The position numbers and the translations under genes are program-made. From Blakeslea trispora (lineage: Eukaryota > Mucoromycota > Mucoromycetes > Mucorales > Choanephoraceae), in the NCBI GenBank assembly GCA_025331445.1, contig JAIWNE010000036.1, forward strand, positions 186,001 through 250,000: a DNA stretch of 64,000 nt, read 5' to 3'. Below the pieces are notes generated by a model, which ran no database searches, was not told the DNA's origin, and saw only the letters and a list, made by a program, of their open reading frames with translations. The stretch's first letter is position 1; each line of letters begins with the position of its first letter. This document shows positions 19,521-39,033 of this stretch, piece after piece.

Positions 19521-19981
19521 TATGTAAATATATGTATTGTAAAAGTCAGAAATAAACAAAAGGCTATTCCTTTAGCAGGCTGGAAGGCTTTTAAGAAAAT
19601 TTTGATCTTGAAGAGACCGTCACAATTTTCATTTTGAAAAGCCGCAATTTAGTGCTGCTGTGTCTGGGGGCTACTCCGCCGGTAATAAGCAATACGATTG
19701 GACACTGTCAGCCAATAAAAGTTGTTATTACCGTCGCTCATTTAAGTTTTGGCTTAATGGTTTTTGATGAGTGGGCTCAAACAGAATATTACTAAAAACT
19801 ACAGAATTTTCTCTCTGTTCTACCAAAGAGATTCATCAAGAAAATTACAGTGATTGAAAGCTTGTTCGACTACAAATAAGAAGCGAAAGTGAGTAAGACA
19901 ATCAAGCTAACGAAGTAAGCTTTGTCTCAGAAACGAAGCCAGTAACGCCCTGCAATCCTTACAAGAGCTGTATTTCGTTTA

Positions 19982-20141
19982 GACTAACACTTGGTCCACT
20001 CACTTCGTCCACTCTTTACGTACACCCCATCATATTTTTGTCCACTCCTTACGTACACCCCACTCAAATTTCCTTGACATGATAGTAGTTATTACTCACC
20101 CCCCAATTTTTTGTCCACTCTGTGTACAAGTTTCCAAAAAA
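19982..20141 (+). repeat. Left terminal inverted repeat of the MULE
   Basis: 160 bp. It contains internal repeats of GTCCACTC and TACGTACACCCCA-type motifs, which could be transposase binding sites. It lies about 105 bp upstream of the transposase start codon. Confidence 0.9.
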
Positions 20142-20247
20142 AGAAAAAAGTAATTTGTCCACTCCATTTCCGCAGTTTTTGTTCAATAAACTTTTTTTGA
20201 CAGCGATTGTCAACAAAAAACCTTTTTCTTTTGTTTATAATATAAAA

Positions 20248-23200
20248 ATGTACCAAGAAGCTGCACCTTATCTAGCAATGTTTGAAAAGATTGTAAAGAC
20301 AAGCTACAGTACCAAAGAAGATCTACGCAATGACATCCGTCTGCTTGGAAAAGAGCATAATGTTATTATGAGTATTAAGTCATCCAAGCCTACTTGTATC
20401 TATTACATTTGTAAGCATGGTGGGCACAAGCGGGTTAGATCAGACCGTGGCCAAACAACCAATGGAAGGAAAAGTAAGAAGATGTTATGTGATACTTTTA
20501 TTCAATTCAATTATGATGAAGTCCGCGAGGATTGGACAGCTAGCCGTCATCATGGTCTTCACAACCATTCGATTCCAGGAAACCCAGCAGCTTACAGCAT
20601 TAACAGAAAGATGTCTGCAGAACTTGAAGAGGAAGTATTCGCTGATTTTAAGTCTGGATTGACTGCAAATGTTATTTATCATGCTTTGAAGTCACGAAAG
20701 ATTTTCAACATCACTAAAAATGATCTTGAAAACCTTCAGTATCGCTTTTTCAGTGCTGAGCGTGGCAAAATGATGTATGAATACATCACCGGATTGCAAG
20801 ATAAAGGCTACGAGGTTTATTACAAGCTTGACAGTGACAAGCGAGTTAATGGAGTGTTTTTTACTTCGAAGACAAGTATTGACCGTGTCAGACGCATGAA
20901 CGAAAATCTTGTGATTGATGCGACATACAAAACAAACGCTCATAAGTTGACATTTGTCAATATTGTTGGCACAAGTAGTGTTGAAGGCATCAAGCCCGAT
21001 ACATTGGTGACATTTGAAGTTGCAGGCGCTTTCATCAGCGAAGAAAACTTTGCAAACTATCAATGGGTGCTTCGTTGCCTCAAGGAAGCTGTTTGGTCAG
21101 ATCCAAGCCAACAAAGTACCAATGGTCCTTTGACCATAACCACCGACAACGAGCAAGCACTCAAGAATGCTATTGCAGATGTGTTTCCGACAACACACAA
21201 TATCTTGTGCTATGTTCATATGCAAAAGCGTTTTGAAGCCAAATTGATGGAGTGCATCAGCGACAAGGACAAAGACAGAAGGCTGATCATCAGACAAGAG
21301 ATCCAAAAGCAATATCAAGCAATTGCCTTGAAGAAAACAACCGAGAGAGACATGCTGAAAGCTGTACAAGATCTCAAAAGATTGTTCTTGGAAGAGCCTG
21401 ATATCTTTCCTGAAAGCGCCAAAGTAAGCAATTAACGAGATACTTAATATCGTCTAAACTATGTATAACAGGAAAATTTGGAATTGCAAGCCGATGGTAC
21501 TCCTTCTCCTTTAAATTATGTCAGTAAAGAAGGAAAGAAAAAAGCCATTGAATTCATTGAAAGGTAGTTGAAATGTGCTTGAGGCAACAACTACTAATCT
21601 TTATACGTTTAGTAAAATGGAAGAAGCAGAGATGTGGACGGCTTTCCACACACACAAGTTACCTCACATGGGAAATCGGTCTTCCAATAGAGTGGAAAGT
21701 AGCCATTCTTCACTCAAAAGCTACCTAAAATCTTCTTCTGGTACTATTGTTATGACAACAGAGAAAATTCATCAATGGTATAAACAGAGGGTAACTATTC
21801 AAAATTCTTTAATGATATACTTTGTACTAAAGAGTTACTTTTAAATGAAAAGGAAGATGATTTGGAAAACAAGAAAACCGAAGAGATGCTTTCGTATCGT
21901 AGTTTGTATACTTATGAAGAAGAAGTTTTCGAAATGATCCGTCCTTTGTTTACCAAAATATATTCCTTTGCTGTAAACAAAATATTCCAGGAGCTTCTCA
22001 AAATTCGCTCTGCTGAGAGCCCTGTTGTCTTCAAAGACTGTTTATGCTCAATCAAGTTTCATTACAACCTTCCCTGTAAACACATGTTGAGCTTAGAATC
22101 AAGCAAAGTTCCCATCAGCATAATTCCCCAAAGATGGAGATTCGATCATGATGAGGGCGATGAAGGTAAGCATGGTTTAGTTTTGGTAGGATATAATCAA
22201 CAGTTATTAAATTGTTTTCAAGAAATGATGATCTCGACACAAATAGAAGATACTCTAGTCAGTGATGAAAATAACAATGAAGTCCTTGAAATGCAGACAC
22301 GAGATGGTAATTAAAGATATGAGGTGTTTTAAAGGAACAAGAACTAATAGAGCATTTCATAGATTTGAAAGAAAATGAAGACGAAGAAGTATGGGAGTGC
22401 GAAAACAAAGATGATGATGATGATGATTGTACAATCATCGATGCAACTATGGTGCCTCCTCAAATCATACGCAGATCAAACAAAAGAAACTTTAACTCTC
22501 GCATAGTTAGCACAGCTACTAAACTCATAGAACTATACGAGTCTCTTGAATCTGAACAAGATAAAAGAAATTTGATTGATTCTGTTGAGAATGCGATGAA
22601 AAGTGTTGAGATCAGAAGAGTTGAAGAAGTTCTTCCTCCAAAAACACGCGTCAGTGTAAAAGGAAGACCGAAAAATGTAAAGCGCAATTTGACACATTAC
22701 GAGCATTTGCTTAAAAAAGAAGATTCAAAAGAGGCTCAATTAAAACCGAAGAAGATGGAGGTAGCCATCAAAGAAAAAGAAGAAACCAAACGTAAGCTTC
22801 AAGACTTAAAAAAAAGTAAATACAGATAGCTAACGTATATGCAAAAAGTAGAATTGAAGATCAAAAAGAGAGCCATTAGCCAAGTCAGCTACGGAAAAGA
22901 CGATTTTGTTTTTGACATGCAATATAGACCAAACAAGCGCTCTCGCGGCAATATTAGTCAAGCTGTTCGCAGTATACTTAGCTCTTCAATCAAAGAATCC
23001 AATATTACTGGATATCTCGATCCTGAAGGAGATGGAAACTGTGGCTTTCGGGCTATTGCTTTCTTGGTCAACAGGAACGGCCCTAGTTATGAAGATGGTG
23101 AACAATATCTTGAGGTCAGGTCAAGAATGCTTGAGACTTATCAAAAACTCAAACCAATCTACAAAGAACACTTTCCTGCCTTCCAAATCGAGAGATTGGA

Positions 23201-23453
23201 AGAAACCATAAAAAAAGGAATGAAAAAGAAAGAAATAGCTGAATGGTTCTACGGACCTGACTGCGCTCAAGTTGTGGCAGACACATATGGGGTCCCAGTT
23301 TGTGTATATCCCTCTGCTGAATTAGAGCATTCTGCGGTAAATCCTCCCTTGACTTTTCTGCCTCTTGAATTGCCAAAACACAAATCCAAACCTGTGGCAA
23401 TTCATCTTCAAAATGGACACAACTTACACTGGTATGCAATTTCGTTTGGTTAA
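20248..23453 (+). CDS. MULE transposase with SWIM finger and C-terminal OTU protease domain
   Basis: Likely exons are 20248-21423, 21472-21563, 21613-21790, 21853 to 22165 or 22306, 22342-22815 and 22849-23453. Order of parts: a FAR1/WRKY-like N-terminal region (CIYYICKHGGHKRVRS, HHGLHNHSI); the DDE core with D in NLVIDATYKTN, D in TITTDNEQALKNAI and a probable E in SNRVESSHSSLKSYL; a SWIM finger CLCSIKFHYNLPCKHM; an acidic and coiled linker; then OTU with the nucleophile motif EGDGNCGFRAIAF and the catalytic-His motif NGHNLHWYAISF. Fusion of the OTU part depends on a 33-nt intron (22816-22848) that carries a GCTAAC branch site; otherwise OTU is a separate frame from the ATG at 22839. The apparent start inside the TIR is not an ATG; 20248 is the first ATG. 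Confidence 0.85.
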
Positions 23454-23636
23454 TCCCCAAACTGATTGCATACCAGTGTATCATTACTACTTAAAGATAA
23501 AAGGAAAACAAGAAGAGTACAACATGTACTGGAACAAATGGCGTCAATTCTCTAAAAGACAAACAAATGCTAACAAAGAAACTATAATAATTGAATAAAA
23601 ATAACCAAGTAACTACAGTGACTGAACTATATTTAC

Positions 23637-23796
23637 TTTTTTGGAAACTTGTACACAGAGTGGACAAAAAATTGGGGGGTGAGTAATAACTACTATCATG
23701 TCAAGGAAATTTGAGTGGGGTGTACGTAAGGAGTGGACAAAAATATGATGGGGTGTACGTAAAGAGTGGACGAAGTGAGTGGACCAAGTGTTAGTC
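23637..23796 (-). repeat. Right terminal inverted repeat of the MULE
   Basis: Inverted copy of 19982-20141 with the same GTCCACTC and GTACACCCC submotifs. It begins about 180 bp after the OTU stop codon. Confidence 0.9.
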
Positions 23797-23829
23797 TTCG
23801 TTTAAGGAACACTATTAGAGGAGTCAATG

Positions 23830-24137
23830 AAAGACATGATTTTGAGTAACATCGTTCTGGCTGAACATTTTGAGGACCTTCTGACTTGCTTGACAGAATG
23901 AAAGGCGCATTCCATTGTTTGAACCCTGAATGCCCATCTGTCAAGAATGGTCGTGGGGTAAGTGGCCGTGACAAGCTGTCTGCTCTTGCTATTGCCATTT
24001 CCGGGATTACAACTTTGCTCTTTCAGCAAACCCTCCCTGCTTTCTCTCAAACCATCAGTCCCTCCAACACTGAATTTAATCACAAAACAGCATCCTTCTG
24101 TACAAGAAGCGGTTTATTGGCTGCACGCGAAGCGTGA
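23830..24137 (+). pseudogene. C-terminal zinc-ribbon fragment of an older transposon protein
   Basis: The plus strand reads RMKGAFHCLNPECPSV, then KNGRGVSGRDKLSALAIAIS, GITTLLF and a Ser/Pro/Thr-rich end. A CxxxxC pair followed by GRDxxxALAI resembles the zinc ribbon plus NRDxNAAxNI end of TnpB/Fanzor-type (OrfB) proteins. The same frame just upstream has three stops, so it is a remnant. The complete MULE inserted only about 30-80 bp upstream of it. The assignment is from pattern memory only and is weak. Confidence 0.35.
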
Positions 24138-25693
24138 TGAGCAAGGTTGTAAGTGTTACATAAACTCTAATTGCTTTAAATTGCCAAATCTTCTCTCCCC
24201 CCAGACATGACAGCTTTGCCGTGCTTTTGAGCAGGGTTATAATGAAGATGGAAAAGCATAAATCAAAAAAGACTACAGTTGATAGCCCTTGGTTAAAGCT
24301 GTTCAGCATAATAGTGAAAGCTTATTAATTGAGAGCCTGGATCTATTTTATCAGCTGAATTACAATTTGTTTTTATGCAGCCAAAAAGTCTTTTACTAAC
24401 GACAACTATAGTCAGGTTACTATCAACAATAAATCATTTGGTTCAGATGTCAATGTATAGAAGCATAATTAAATTCTCTCAAGTTAATGTATTGCTGCTC
24501 CCTTGCTGATAAAATTTCTATGTATAAAGAAAAGATGCTACTTGTCTAATAATGCTCTATGTATAAGCGAAACGTGTTGATTTGATAGACTACACTACGA
24601 CAAACTAAGTTTTCTCAAACTGCTTCACTTTGAGTCATACTACATTTGGATGCAAGCCCCTCCCCCACCTTAAAAATTTATGAATTCATGAATCGAGCAG
24701 GTAAACATGGATGTTTCTTGTAATGCAGAAGACACACTTCTGCCGAAATTTTAAAAAAGATAAGAACAAGCTAATGAAGTTGGAGTGTCATAATCGAAAC
24801 ATTTTTCATAAAAATCCTGTACTCTGCATTAATGATTATCAATTGCTTGTACGCATTTAATGCAAAGCTCACAAAAAAAAAGTCTTCTTTAAGTCTGACA
24901 GCCTAAGTTTGTTGTTCACAACATTTTATCAAATGTTGATCTGCTGCTTCAAGTTCTTACTTTACAAGTTCATGATGAACAAAAACAAAAAGATACAAAG
25001 TGGGAGAAGCAACGAAGAACTTATCTCCAGTATTCTTTTTAAATCAAGGCATACATCACAGTTTTAATACGCATGAACATTATGTTTGCGCTTTAAACAA
25101 GACACCTTATTAAAGGTCAATTAAGCATACTATATTTTTTGTCACATTCTTATACAAGAAACAAAAAAAAAAGGCTCTTGACCTTTTAGTTTGATAACTT
25201 GCCAAACGCTTTCACGTGGATATGTAGTTGATCTTATGCATAGCATTTTGATTGTAATATGTGCTTATTAACAAGAAACGGAAGAGCACTGATCTCGCTT
25301 AAGGTTAAGTGTCAATAAACTATGCAAACAACACAAAGTTAAGAGCCTTGAATTTATTGTCAATTGCAAGCTAGAGAAAGATACTACCAGCAAGAAAAAG
25401 AAAAGACGGCATTCATTGAAGGCTAATTATAACCAAGTTTATGAAAAGACAGACTTTATAGAGCTTACATGTGCTTTTGTATTCCAAACTACCTTTGGGG
25501 CTTCCTGTTCATTGCGAAGAAGAATATTATAGTCTTGTCTTATTCTTACATATGAAGAAAACTTTAAAAATTAGATTAAGCCAGAATTTGGTCATGCATT
25601 TGATTTGCTAATTCAGATTGTTTAAAAGAACTGTGTTTTCAACCTTCTCTTTTTTTTTTGGCTTTTGTTTTCAATATAACTTTAAGCAGCAGA
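24138..25693. other. Gene-poor spacer
   Basis: About 1.55 kb of AT-rich DNA between a transposon remnant and the P450 gene. No frame or repeat is convincing. The right end should contain the P450 promoter. Confidence 0.5.
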
Positions 25694-32676: not shown

Positions 32677-32893
32677 ATAGAGATGTATGTCGAAAGTTTC
32701 ACCCCGAAATTTAACCGCGATTGATAGCCATGCTACAAGAAATAGACTTGAATGAATCAGGATGGCATGGTTAGAAAGCTCTTTTTCTTCGCAAGCATAC
32801 TATGACATCCTGACTCATTCAAATCTATTTCTTGTAGCATGGCTATCAATCGCGGTTAAATTTCGGGGTGAAACTTTCGACATACATCTCTAT
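32677..32893. repeat. Foldback inverted repeat, 88-bp arms
   Basis: Arms 32677-32764 and 32806-32893 are complementary with two mismatches; the loop is 41 bp. The arms contain GTCGAAAGTTTCACCCCG, which also occurs at 63531-63548 next to a TA dinucleotide, so this is probably a MITE of the same family. The complementarity extends slightly beyond the TATGTCGAAAG ends, so the exact element edge is unclear. Confidence 0.85.
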
Positions 32894-33270
32894 GCTTATA
32901 TATTTAAAATAATCCCTATATACAGTGCTTCCAGAGTCCATTGATCACCTTACCGAAAAAATTGGTCACCTTTCTGAGAACCAATTGTGGTTCGTTCCTA
33001 CCACAAAAGTCGTTGCCTTCGCTTCGACTCCAGATGTAGTATTGGCACGGGTGACATGTCTGGAGGGAGGACAAAAACCAAAATCCAAAAAAAAAACGAA
33101 TTTTAAGTTTGGCGATAGCCAAACTTTTTTGGATTTGCATTATTATGAGTTATTCAAGCACTCCAGACAATAAACTGAACTTTCGCAATGTTTTAGTGGG
33201 ATATTTATAATAGTAATGTAATAGAGATAATTGTGTAAAATAAGTATAGAGTAATATAAGGCCAAGCGAG

Positions 33271-36200
33271 TTAAAGGTAGTTAATCGAGGTGGGATTTTG
33301 ACATCTCTTTTTATCCCAAACGCCCTCACACTGTTTGCTCTTGCAATTGAGACATATAGGATTCTTGCAGTTAGACCTACGCATTTTCCCATTACACAGA
33401 ACATCACCATATCCTTTGCATGTTTTCTTCAAAGCATTTGCATTACTTGAATAAGGATGGTAGGATGTGGCAATGTTGGTTTGTCTGACTTGAGCTTGCG
33501 TAGGTAATGGTACTGGCACTGGAATGCTTTGTACAAGAATTCCATAATAGTAGTTACTATTATGATAGCTAATCAAATGAGAATAGCCAGGAGCTGTTGT
33601 CTCAGGTACAGGTGTTTTAGAAACGACAATGTCGATAGGTGCGGTTGAAATTGTAAGCAAGTTTCTGCTGTTGTCTTGGCTTGGCAATGAAGGTACTGCC
33701 GATGGCAAATGTACACTAGCAGAATTTTTCTTACAGATTTGAGACTTAATTAGCGAGATAGTACTGTGATGTGCTTGATGAGTAGTGCGAGCTAGCTTCT
33801 GCTCCTTCCAATGTCGATGATACTTTTCTAAATGTTCAGGTGTTTTATAAAACACTCTTTCTCCCTCACAAAAGGTGTTCCATTTTTTGGCCAGAAGGTC
33901 AAAGTTAGGGGTAATTCTATTTGATGTCTCAAGAACATCTTTCAACAGACGTCCAAACAAAAGCTTTTCTTCTAAAGTATGAACTGCAATTACAGCATAC
34001 TTGGCCCTTTGGTGACTTGCCACAAATTGATACTATTTCTCTCATGGAGAGTGGAACCAATTTTCAAGAAAACAGTATCTTTGATATTTGGTATCGCAAG
34101 ATCTTTTTCTACGTTATACACAGGACTACTTAAACTCGAAACTCACTCTACTTCCTTCCACCTTCTCAATTCCCAGCCGTTGCATTTCCTCATCTGGCAA
34201 AGGGCATATGCCAAAAACTTCTTCAGAGCCACGAAATTTCAAGGCATTGATTTCAACTGCCAAATGCTTTAGACCTCGATCAGCCATCTGCATAGCTTGG
34301 CGCAAATAATCAAGATGCTGAGTCAGCCAAGGATCATAATGACCCTTGTACTCTAATCCAAGACGATTGGAAGTTCCAGCATCAAAGTTATGTCCTAATC
34401 GGTAGTCAATTAACATTGCAGAGGCAAGCTCTGGACCTGCACCAAAGGACCCAAACTTTCTGATAAGGTTCTGGTGAACTCCTCCTTCCAATGAATTGGT
34501 TCCTCTTACACATCTATAAAGAGTGAGACCATACTTGTCTTTTTTCTGCTTCTTGTAATAAAGTTGGACACCTGGTGGATCCGAGACATGGCCTAACTGC
34601 ACAGTCTTCAAGGCACTCAGTGCTTGCGCCCAAGACACTTTGTCAAAAAGAGAACATCCTAACTTGGAGCATCTCAAGGGTCCAAACGAAAGGAAAAGAG
34701 ACTGTAATACTGGCAGAAGTATAGCGGGAGAGCAAATCTTTCGTTTGACTCTTTCCCAAATCCAGTTGCAGTCATACTTCGTTCTCATTTCCCAGCTTTC
34801 ACCATTCTTTGCCAATGCATCTGAAACCAATTTCTTGTCATCTTCATCAAGAACAAAAAGACTATCACTAAATCTTTGAGTGAATTCCTTGTAAAGACCG
34901 TGCTGCTTATAAGGCCTTATCATATCAATCAGATGAAATACATCCTTGACAACACGAGTAAAGACTCGTTTGTCATCATGCTGTTCATGCACTATCTCAT
35001 GGCTTATTCTTAAGTTGGAGGTGAACAGCTGATAGCCGTGTTCGAAGCTTTTTCTGTCAACATTAGAAAAGTTATCAGGGAACATAGTGTTGAAAGCAAT
35101 ATCAACATCTGCATCGTTGATCGATCCAACAACTTCAACGTTTTTCTCAGAATCGTTTAGACTAGTAACGACAACTGCATTCGGTCTCACACTGATACTT
35201 TGGCTTGGCGGACGGACGCTACTACCAGCTTCTTGTACTTCTTCTCTTAGCGCCTTTATCAAATCAGAATTGAAAACCTTGATAACAAATCCAAGTTCAG
35301 AAAATGAGCCCAAACAAACAGGAGCTGCAGAGTTTCTGGCTTCATTGTTTTGTTTATTATCAAGATTTTCAGGATTCACCATGTAGCTTGGAATATAGAC
35401 TTTGGTTACCCTGAAAAGACAGGAGCCTTTCTCAACATGCTTGTTATCTTTGATTTGTTCAATCTGACCGGAGGCAACCACATGTTTTAAGCCACGAGGC
35501 TTCAAAGAAACAAAGGTTCCTGGTATATAATTCTTCGAATTAATGCGCGAACCAGTCTCAGGAATAGCCTTGATTGCTTCGTAAATAGTTAAGCTGGCCC
35601 AAGCATCTATGACTGCGTATTCTATCTGCTTGGAAGAGAGTATCTCTGAGGACCATTGAGTCTCTCGCTCTGACTTCTGAATGCTTTTCCCCAGCACACT
35701 GAGTGAAATTGCTGACAAAGAAGTTGCACCGCTGGACACTACTTTTCTTGAGGAGCAAAAGGATCCCAATTCAAGTTTGCCTTTGCAATTGACACACATA
35801 CTTTTTGCCAATCTGCTCAAGTCACCGCCTACTTGCCGCCCAACTTTCTTTATGTTTTCATCCTCAAAAATCATCATCAAAGAGATGGGTAAAGAAATCC
35901 AACATCTATCAATATGGAGCACATAGACATTTTTGGCAAATGCTATCTGAATCACATCCACTCTACAGCTATCTACTCCTTCAGAATAACAGATATCCCA
36001 TTCACAATCAAAGCCTATAGCAACATCGCCTCCTTCCTCAGCTGACGACTTGATCTCTTCAAACAAAGCTCTGAGAGAAATCTCCATGGAATCAAAGTCA
36101 CGACATAAATAAAGAATATTGATATCATTAGACAATTGAAGATATGTGCTATCTGTGCTTGAAGTGTTCATCCTTTCTTAATCTGCTGGCTCTACACCTT

Positions 36201-37673
36201 TTTTAAGAGATTCAAATATCCCCTCAACAAAAGACTGGTCACCTTTCACATTGTCAGTGAAAAAAGCGATTGGCATTTGATGCCCGTAGTCGAAGTATGC
36301 TTCCCGCATTTTCTCAAAAGAGTGCTTCAGATATGACAGTGCCTTCGATGGCACTAATACTTGGTGTACTATCTCTTCATATTCATTTGTCATAGTGTAG
36401 AGACCAGTAAACACACTGGTGTCGTCAATTTTGGCCATATGCTTTGGGAATTTGAATGAATGATCACCCTTTAAGATCTTTCCATCCAAAAGCATCATAT
36501 GTTTGTCCATTCTTGGTTGAAGGACTTTTATGATTTCCGTGTAGATAGTTCGAATGTACGTGCCGGTAGGTACGAAGCCGGCATATCTCTTCTGATCATT
36601 AAACGATGAAAAATCCTCAGGTGGCGAGTTCGAGAAATACTGAGAAATTCCACTCCGTTTGTTGTATTCAGAGAGCAAATACTGAAGCTCAACTCTGTCA
36701 TGACGAAGCATGTGAAGCTCACGAAGAATCTTTTGGAACCTTTCTGGTCCAACTGAGTTCTGAATACAGGGTCTGAGAAGGTCGACTACTGCTTTTGAGA
36801 TTCCTCCCCGATGAGTAAGAATAGCTGGAAATTCCACCTGCAGTTCAAGAGGAAGCTGTTCAACAATTTCTGAGCCATGCGCATTAAATGAAGCTCCACA
36901 TTTTCGATCACAACATCTATATCTAACTGACATAAGGTAAAAGCAGCTATAATTTTGAAAATGAATGAGTATGCATACTTTTAAAGAGTTATTTGTTAAT
37001 CACCTAAACATATCCACAATTCTTCGGGCATGTGGTTTTTTATTATAACCTTTCGTTTCAAGGCTCTTCTTGCAAATTTCCCTAGGACACCTTATTCCCT
37101 CCAAGCCTTAGTTGCTCAACAGGTGCGAAATCCAAAGAAAAACTTGTGGCCTCTAGAGATAGTTGGCGTCCTTTTTCTTTCGAAGAGCAAAAAAGGTCAT
37201 CATAGACTCAATCCAAAAGGTACCATTTTTGTATTCAAAAGGATATTCTTCGTTTGCTAGACGAGCCTGTAGTTCCTCAGAACAATCAGTCAAAACACTG
37301 TTGTCTGGAAGCGTGTCGCTATTTTCCTCCGTGTCTACATCTTCAACTGAGTCTTCAACTGTTTCACTGATCTGTTCTTCGTTTCGTTCCTGAGTAATAT
37401 TCTCCACTAATGCATTATGCTCCTAAAGCCTAAATAGTGTTACTATGACAAACTCTAATTTTTGTCATCTCGGAAGGCATAAACGATATTGTTTCTGACT
37501 TCAACATAAGAGAGGTTGAAGATATAACTTACTTCATTAGTTTGACTATCAATCCCATTTGCACTGTTTGCACGGTTAAACAAGCTTGTAAGCATTCGCT
37601 GATTCCTGTCAAATCCTCTAGTAGAGAAGAATCTCAACGTTTTGAAGCTTTTGTTTGTTTTTTGCTTAGGCAT
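33271..37673 (-). pseudogene. DUF6729-like / DDE transposase / 3'-5' exonuclease protein with three stops
   Basis: Four exons join in phase (37673-37533, 37422-37004, 36946-34147, 34032-33271) to about 1,370 codons interrupted by TAG at 37153-37155, TAA at 37108-37110 and TAA at 36178-36180. Parts in order: a basic N-terminus; a zinc-like module (FWIESMMTFFALRKKKD, IRCPREICKKSL, VRYRCCDRKCGASF) that I recall as DUF6729; D in MLLDGKILKGDHSF (codon near 36484); D in PIAFFTDNVKGD (near 36254); a DEDDy exonuclease (AIGFDCEWD, VGRQVGGDLSRLAK, EYAVIDAWASLTIY); RGTNSLEGGVHQN with the probable catalytic E near 34487; and a Cys-rich tail (CKGYGDVLCNGK, CLNCKSKQCEGVW). The exonuclease lies between the second D and the E. 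The long intact stretches argue for recent decay. The DUF number is from memory. Confidence 0.7.
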
Positions 37674-37744
37674 TTGATAGCATAAAAAAAGTAAAGAAAG
37701 AAAAAGGACTCGAAAAGCAGAAAACTTTGTAGTGTATCAAGGTA

Positions 37745-39033
37745 TCGTATTTTCACACCAAATTCGCGGATTTTACAACTAATACTCGAGGAAAATACAC
37801 ACAAAAATTTATTAATTATCAAAAGTAACATCTTCTCCTCTAATATATCTGTTTAGATTTTCAACGCAGTGCTTTGTCCACCCTTCACAATCTTTGGGCC
37901 AGACGCTTCTTTCTGCTTGCTCGACGACCTTGTTCATCATCTCCTTCTCCTCTCTTGGGGATCTTCTTACGAAGTTCTTGAGTTTAGCAAAGCATGACTC
38001 GATTGGATTGAACATGAGAGAGTAGGGGGAAGAAAATGACATGTGTATCTTGAGCGACTAATGATCTCCTGGACTTCTTTGCTATGATGAAATCTAGCAT
38101 TGTCCATGATGATAAGCATGGGCTGTTGATACTCTTTGTCAAGCCACTCAATCAACTGCCTCATGAATTCAGCAAAAATGAATCAATTGGTAGACCCATT
38201 GATCATCACAGACTGAAGTGACTCCACTCTGTGGATTGTCATGGCACCGATTATTGAGATTTTCTCGCTTCTTTTTACTTTGGTTAACACATGAGCTTTT
38301 TTTCCTCTTTTTGATCGAGCTTGACCTGGAACCATGCAAGCATTAAAGCCACATTCGTCAACAAAAACACAGTTAGCTGCATAATTAATGCCTTTAATTG
38401 ACAGGTCCTCGGCATATTGTCTTCTGCTGGCTTTTAGCTGCTCTTTAGTCTGGGCCATCTCCAAGGGTGAGCTTCTCTTCAATGTCAACATGAGGTGGGT
38501 ATCAATATGCTTGTGCAAAGCGCTTATGCTGATGGATATCTCTTCAGGAAATTCTTCAGGAAACTTTGCCATGAGCTTCAATCGTAGCTGCTCCAAAGTT
38601 AAGATGTTTCCTTCTTCTTCATCAATTAAATCCCTTAAAAAGTTGGAATGTTGTTCCTTGATTTTTATGTGCTTAGGACCACCGCGCTTCTTGTATTCAA
38701 CTTTGTTGTACTTGCGTCCTGTTTCAACTATACCACGTATAGTACTTTCAGAAAGTCTGTATTTAACAGCGAGCTTGGTTATTGGTGTTGCTGTTGCAAA
38801 GGCTTTTTCACAGATTTCTCTACGAAGTTCTTCGGTTGTTCTAGTATAAATCTTGCGAGATTGCTTAGCATTGGTGTTAGCTTGAGTAGACATTTTTTTG
38901 TATGGCGAGTAATGGTTTATAAAATGATCAAAGTAGTAAGAAATAGTTAGATATCTTAAATTCTAATGATTTATTAGTTGTAAAATCCGCGAGTTTGATT
39001 TTGCAGATTCCCGAATTTGATGTGAAAATACGA
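37745..39033 (-). mobile_element. Tc1/mariner-type transposon, 1,289 bp
   Basis: Inverted ends TCGTATTTTCACACCAAATTCG (left; the right has one base change in this segment) are flanked by TA (37743-37744 and 39034-39035). The inner TIR motif CGGATTTTACAACTAATA is present on both sides, but the right TIR carries about 22 extra bases between the two blocks. It contains a single broken transposase gene. It sits just 5' of the DUF6729/exonuclease gene and about 110 bp upstream of the calmodulin-like start codon. Confidence 0.88.
37812..38893 (-). pseudogene. Tc1/mariner (IS630-type) transposase, inactivated
   Basis: Starts MSTQANTNAKQSRKIYTR, with a helix-turn-helix region (TPITKLAVKYRLSESTIRGI). 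The DDE core shows ANCVFVDECGFN (first D), MLIIMDNARFHHSKEV (second D) and SPYSLMFNPIESCFAKLKNF (E). An in-frame TGA near 38180 follows MINGSTN, and a one-base deletion near 38030 separates CHFLPP from the YSLMFNPIE frame. Two lesions make it non-functional as read. It is transcribed toward the DUF6729 pseudogene. Confidence 0.88.

Follow-up and report, generated by a model that had tools for sequence, protein, structure and literature searches.

A 64,000-nucleotide stretch of the Blakeslea trispora genome (contig JAIWNE010000036.1, positions 186,001 to 250,000; hereafter the window) carries on its minus strand, at 33044..37744, what is quite likely a decayed copy of a DNA transposon belonging to an exonuclease-bearing type that was originally reported from the Dada superfamily. 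Its DDE transposase contains a complete DEDDy 3′-5′ exonuclease, which follows the second Asp of the catalytic core and precedes its Glu. This order had been proposed in a preliminary description made from the sequence alone, and it is borne out by intact frames at two other loci of the same genome, L011 and L018, and by conservation across 159 aligned sequences. The preliminary description knew of no characterised transposon with such a layout, but the layout is already known, as the text of PMC3706591 reported it in 2013 for Dada of two hosts, Laccaria and Ectocarpus. What is new here are the Mucorales and many Agaricomycete relatives, the defined ends, the constraint on the exonuclease, the relatives with a dead exonuclease, and the finding of no RNA gene nearby. 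A DDE enzyme with an exonuclease inside its catalytic domain bears on the question of whether the processing of 3′ ends is done by transposons themselves or left to the host.

The copy is complete at its 3′ end and truncated at its 5′ end, where it is ~124 bp short relative to L014. It is 91-97% identical to the copies at loci L011-L017, and its decay shows as four stop codons within 1079 codons aligned to the frame of L018, a more distant relative. All of its features lie on the minus strand. The frame at 36178-36999 holds the C-terminal half of a DUF6729 module (PF20499, E = 1e-9) and the half of the core with the first and second catalytic Asp, D1 and D2 (GDHSFK, FFTDN). A TAA divides it from the frame at 34126-36177, which is open over 683 aa, is 96% identical to its best other copy, and holds the exonuclease, a linker, a DxxH motif, a helical part and the Glu (RGTNSLEGG). 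The C-terminal part sits in a separate open frame, 33271-34032, with a Cys-rich tail (CKGYGDVLCNGKMRRSNCKNPICLNC...). The DUF6729 module ahead of the core and the Cys-rich tail behind it thus stand as first described. The copy at L011 has a single open frame of 1028 aa spanning both core frames, and L018 is open over 1105 aa. Because both are open throughout, D, D, exonuclease and E do follow one another in this order. The window frame is 59% identical to a Mucor mucedo protein over 659 aligned positions.

Catalytic residues were assigned from alignments of first 33 and later 159 sequences, the latter made up of 157 proteins from databases and two frames from the own genome, and residue counts take only sequences with a letter at the position in question. 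D1 (GDHSFK, codon 36463..36465) is Asp in 154/154, D2 (FFTDN, 36253..36255) in 153/155, and the Glu of RGTNSLEGG (34486..34488) is kept in 112/113. The DxxH motif (DVFH, 34933..34944), at which the core is re-entered after the exonuclease, has its Asp and its His in 133/135 each. The preliminary description had D2 and the Glu right and D1 seven residues off, in DGKILKGD. Since 13 rows of the 33-sequence alignment, out of 32 with a letter at the Asp of LDGK, have G, N, S or T instead, D1 is the Asp of GDHSF.

In the predicted model of the L018 frame, D1 (D175) lies within strand 171-177 and D2 (D245) directly after strand 241-244. The models run in the order D1 in strand 1, D2 just past strand 4, insert, strand 5 with DxxH, E loop, helix. 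The transposase core is accordingly predicted to fold as RNase H, and the order of elements fits the single fold in which the preliminary description had asked whether the three acids meet, the E loop being of low confidence in the models. The core is a DDE domain of the C/DxxH (IS256/MULE/hAT) type, a motif described in the text of PMC3706591 and PMC7780238.

The exonuclease occupies 35569..36072, between D2 and DxxH, with the Asp and Glu of FDCEW at 36009-36007 and 36003-36001. Its likeness to WRN, noted earlier by motif, is upheld by a PF01612 match over residues 36-203 of frame 34126-36177 (E = 8.2e-14) and by the WRN exonuclease as the best PDB sequence match (E = 2.2e-16). Of 151 relatives, 135 have the complete set of five DEDDy residues (8 of the 159 are gapped there and were excluded), and Mucorales, a chytrid and Agaricomycetes are represented among these 135. 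The ratio of nonsynonymous to synonymous substitution (dN/dS) was compared for 20 pairs from the own genome, three of which gave no estimate. Of the pairs that gave one, the three most diverged had an exonuclease dN/dS of 0.09-0.11, with synonymous divergence saturated, and the core dN/dS was 0.03-0.04 in two of them. At the level of sequence, these comparisons show that the exonuclease has been under long-term constraint.

A tblastn search of the own 37.2-Mb genome returned 61 pieces at 31 places, when pieces less than 7 kb apart were grouped. Two of these places, C4:3820 and C242:404064, are matched at 28% identity and over the exonuclease region only; they may represent exonuclease genes of the host. 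The 3′ boundary of the window copy, 33043/33044, is common to L011, L012, L013 and L016, beyond which the sequences differ, while the copies at L014 and L017 have their 3′ ends cut short. A terminal inverted repeat (TIR; GGCACGGGTGACATGTCTGGAGGG on the plus strand) lies at this end, at 33044..33067, and the same four copies have the same end. The full-length relatives L018-L022 measure 4.4-4.7 kb and have imperfect inverted ends of ~24 bp, for example GGCTCGTATGCCATGTCTGGGGAG and GGCGGACCTGACATGTCTGGGGGG in L020. When the genome was scanned with at most three mismatches, each end pattern gave 22 matches and the reversed-pattern controls gave 0. The 3′ pattern used was GGCTCGTATGACATGTCTGGGG; the window's own 3′ end is four mismatches away from it and is outside the 22. 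Among eight copies with paired ends, three are bordered by perfect direct repeats (GAAAACTT, AAAATAAA and AAAAAAAAT; 8, 8 and 9 bp, A/T-rich), and the copy with AAAATAAA belongs to the window's own family. Mismatched flanks gave such repeats in 0/56 controls and shifted 8-mers in 3/1344. The preliminary description had called for intact homologues, TIRs and target duplications: homologues were found as open frames in the own genome and as relatives in Mucorales and Agaricomycetes, TIRs were found in imperfect form, and duplications were found in part. Incidentally, a more divergent related element (L029:340-5517, on C235) lies between 101-bp inverted repeats of 98% identity, so that some members of the family may have long TIRs.

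For such an element we conceive the following course of events. The transposase would bind the inverted ends and cleave them; the inserted exonuclease would trim 3′ ends left exposed on the element or on the donor DNA beside it, ahead of joining or repair; and the 3′ ends would be joined to target DNA with an 8-9-bp stagger. End processing was suggested in the preliminary description, and the text of PMC3706591 had already proposed the same role.

Several results weigh against this reading. In the other 14 pairs, the exonuclease dN/dS was 0.19-0.87, several of these pairs being between decayed copies, and it was above that of the core in 9/14. The active site is altered in 16/151 relatives: P0013, P0017 and P0032 have lost all five DEDDy residues while retaining D, D and E, and 13 further relatives have one to three changed. 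The gene models P0016 and P0021 are without the exonuclease domain, so that trimming may be dispensable in some lineages; gene models may, however, skip a domain, as that of P0006 skips the Glu motif. Five of the eight paired-end copies have no duplication of at least 5 bp, and the 9-bp duplication is a run of A. The paired ends of C225 and C256b stand 9.5 and 16 kb apart across insertions (9.5 kb for the A-run copy, 16 kb for the AAAATAAA copy), so that their pairing is inferred. No biochemistry on such transposases was found in the literature searched.

The relatives with a dead exonuclease can be read in two ways: trimming is helpful and not indispensable, or the domain also serves as a structural insertion domain. 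Taken further, the second would have the exonuclease kept mainly as a structural or DNA-binding insert, comparable to the helical insertions of hAT and IS256, with nuclease activity secondary. The persistence of the domain in P0013, P0017 and P0032, together with the 13 partly changed relatives, speaks for it, as do the insertions in the RNase H domains of other transposases (in the text of PMC3985635 and PMC7780238). Its weak point is the 135/151 relatives that keep all five DEDDy residues, in Mucorales, a chytrid and Agaricomycetes alike, and we regard it as rather unlikely. A trimming exonuclease that would be useful without being strictly required is preferred.

A still less probable course is copy-out/paste-in of the IS256-like kind, in which a circle is formed and the exonuclease acts either at the circle junction or on the figure-eight. 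The IS256-type fold would suit it, but a fold match says nothing about the pathway, and the eukaryotic C/DxxH relatives hAT and MULE are regarded as cut-and-paste elements. Finally, some relatives are annotated as '3′-5′ exonuclease' or 'Werner syndrome ATP-dependent helicase-like', but a host gene for a nuclease, domesticated as a fused WRN-like repair protein and no transposon (the preliminary description had named a single-copy, syntenic host gene without terminal repeats as what would speak against its own reading), is highly improbable and was rejected on copy number and ends, as the element is multicopy with common boundaries, inverted ends, some target duplications and many decayed copies. 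With open-frame relatives, defined ends, 8-9-bp duplications and natural dead-exonuclease variants at hand, the 2013 proposal of 3′-end processing would become experimentally testable.

With the L018 frame as the query, phmmer returned 31 proteins, 20 of them with organism names. We take 17 of the 20 to be from Mucorales genera (Apophysomyces alone was checked), and the others are from the chytrid Quaeritorhiza, Athelia and Sparassis. A profile search returned 34 proteins. The Sparassis protein P0031 as the query gave 174 matches; among the best 120 of these, the named relatives are presumably mushroom-forming fungi, judging by genus name, and no protein is named as from Laccaria. Across 119 proteins, core and exonuclease identities correlate with r = 0.84, which 0/999 permutations reached. 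Such a correlation would be seen if the core took up the domain a single time and both were then passed on together, and the exonuclease was probably acquired in this way. Incidentally, the exonuclease-less P0021 (Apophysomyces sp. BC1021) joins the transposase to three SH3 domains in one gene model, the model being either an annotation chimera or a genuine fusion of host and transposon sequence.

Two more open frames of the window copy lie toward its 5′ end. The one at 37455..37736 (MPKQK...) would be the first coding piece and contain the N-terminus. The one at 37156..37422 (EYKNGTFW) appears to hold the DUF6729 module's first half, from its likeness by eye to the EY..GTFW region of P0002, P0003 and P0006 in alignment A1; this frame alone gave no DUF6729 match in the Pfam scan.

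The copy stands among other repeats. A Tc1/mariner-like element with broken frames (37815-38962; DDE_3, below the cut-off) adjoins its truncated 5′ end. On the other side, at 32677-32893, a palindromic repeat of 86% self-complementarity recurs in L011, L012 and L024 and looks like a foldback element or a miniature inverted-repeat transposable element. Farther off, a unit at 19657-24220 has 5′ sub-terminal sequence in common with copies of the exonuclease transposon (89% to L014 over 85 bp) and ends in a similar inverted repeat (GGCAAAGCTGTCATGTCTGGGGGG). It contains a remnant of a TnpB/Fanzor-like zinc-ribbon frame, of which a fuller copy is at L011:7569-9752; this identity is by eye and unconfirmed, PF07282 being below the cut-off (E = 0.02) and no PDB sequence matching. 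A MULE (20089-23453; PF10551, E = 6.5e-17) is nested in the unit, with FAR1 and otubain matches below cut-offs, and by eye it is flanked by similar inverted sequences near 19982 and 23790. At L011 (1855-2282 and 6871-7298) and at L017 near 7690, the exonuclease-transposase unit stands head-to-head with sequence of the Fanzor-like unit, and at L011 it lies between 428-bp inverted repeats of 99.5% identity.

The element was compared with Dada as given in the text of PMC3706591 (Kojima & Jurka 2013). There, exonuclease-bearing Dada is described from the mushroom Laccaria bicolor (Dada-1_LB and Dada-2_LB listed) and the brown alga Ectocarpus siliculosus (Dada-1_ES), its DEDDy exonuclease coming after the second D and before DxxH, and 3′-end processing is proposed. 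The element agrees in that position, in the DDE triad with DxxH after the second D, in a D-D spacing near 70 (567-635 in Dada-U6_DR, 175-245 in L018), and in Cys-rich zinc-type modules on both sides of the core. As for the N-terminal CCCC finger of Dada, two Cys pairs were seen by eye in the DUF6729 part (A1 consensus CxxC...YxCxxxC), in a pair order unlike that of Dada-U6_DR, and Cys spacings before the EFPA motif are heterogeneous in the 99 relatives counted. The C-terminal CCHC finger is not matched by the six-Cys tail here: Cx2C..C..C..Cx2C occurs in 39/157 database relatives, many of the 157 being partial, and CCHC-like spacing in 1/157, itself among the 39.

The DNA ends count on the opposing side. 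Published Dada has 6-7-bp duplications and, where examined, only sub-terminal inverted repeats and no TIRs, and all families with clearly definable ends target small-RNA genes, for small nuclear RNA (snRNA) or transfer RNA (tRNA) (PMC3706591, in which we saw no termini for either the Laccaria or the Ectocarpus families). Here, imperfect ~24-bp TIRs and 8-9-bp A/T-rich duplications (3/8 copies) were found, and no snRNA or tRNA gene was found near the copies. Rfam gave 0 matches in 13 loci of 121,347 bases, with no positive control in this genome and with the proviso that an RNA gene interrupted by the insertion might score under the threshold; ARAGORN with the bacterial code gave 0 tRNA genes in 14 loci, likewise with no positive control in this genome; and Rfam gave 0 matches in the window, again with no positive control. 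Because the core protein agrees with Dada and the DNA ends do not, the element is not filed as a confirmed Dada member. On present sequences it would be a Dada-like variant with different ends and no sign of homing to small-RNA genes, which puts in doubt RNA-gene targeting as a general trait of the protein family.

More tentatively, the exonuclease-bearing fungal elements could form a superfamily of their own, apart from the RNA-gene-targeting Dada of animals. Ending in TIRs, making 8-9-bp A/T-rich duplications and living in Mucoromycota, Chytridiomycota and Basidiomycota, they would have captured a WRN-like exonuclease once inside the catalytic domain, making transposase and nuclease one coupled end-processing machine, and several descendants would carry a catalytically dead insertion domain. 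In the open-licence literature searched, as far as its text was covered, we recognised no later description of the ends of the fungal group; the main text of the 2022 Dada paper (PMC8869645), as far as seen, has neither the word exonuclease nor Laccaria. That literature yielded no paper naming DUF6729 and none on a Mucor MULE with an exonuclease-domain transposase.

Among other transposons, KDZ, Academ, Zisupton and Kolobok identities were rejected, as none had Pfam support in the frames of the window copy or in eight relatives scanned. KolobokD, with a DEDDh exonuclease, and ISL2EU, with a YqaJ exonuclease, are DDE transposons with a nuclease (text of PMC9587614 and PMC4482050). Their nucleases are of families other than DEDDy, on which Kolobok and ISL2EU were also rejected, and a placement between D2 and DxxH is not reported in those texts. 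The frames of the window copy gave no significant IS256 or MULE profile match; PF10551 came up in P0027 below the cut-off (E = 0.059) and no MULE profile matched the other 7/8 relatives. To our knowledge, no MULE has an exonuclease between D2 and E.

Nevertheless, the predicted models share with IS256 and MULE an RNase H core with an insertion and C/DxxH. Their fold match is the IS256-family transposase of ISCth4 (6xgx, 6xg8, 6xgw), at 9-12% sequence identity; ISCth4 differs from the fungal element in being prokaryotic and in having no exonuclease. The duplications of ISCth4 are 8-bp and A/T-rich (text of PMC7780238) and those of MULE are 8-11 bp (text of PMC6446971), so the IS256 (8-bp) and MULE sizes fit the 8-9 bp seen here in 3/8 copies.
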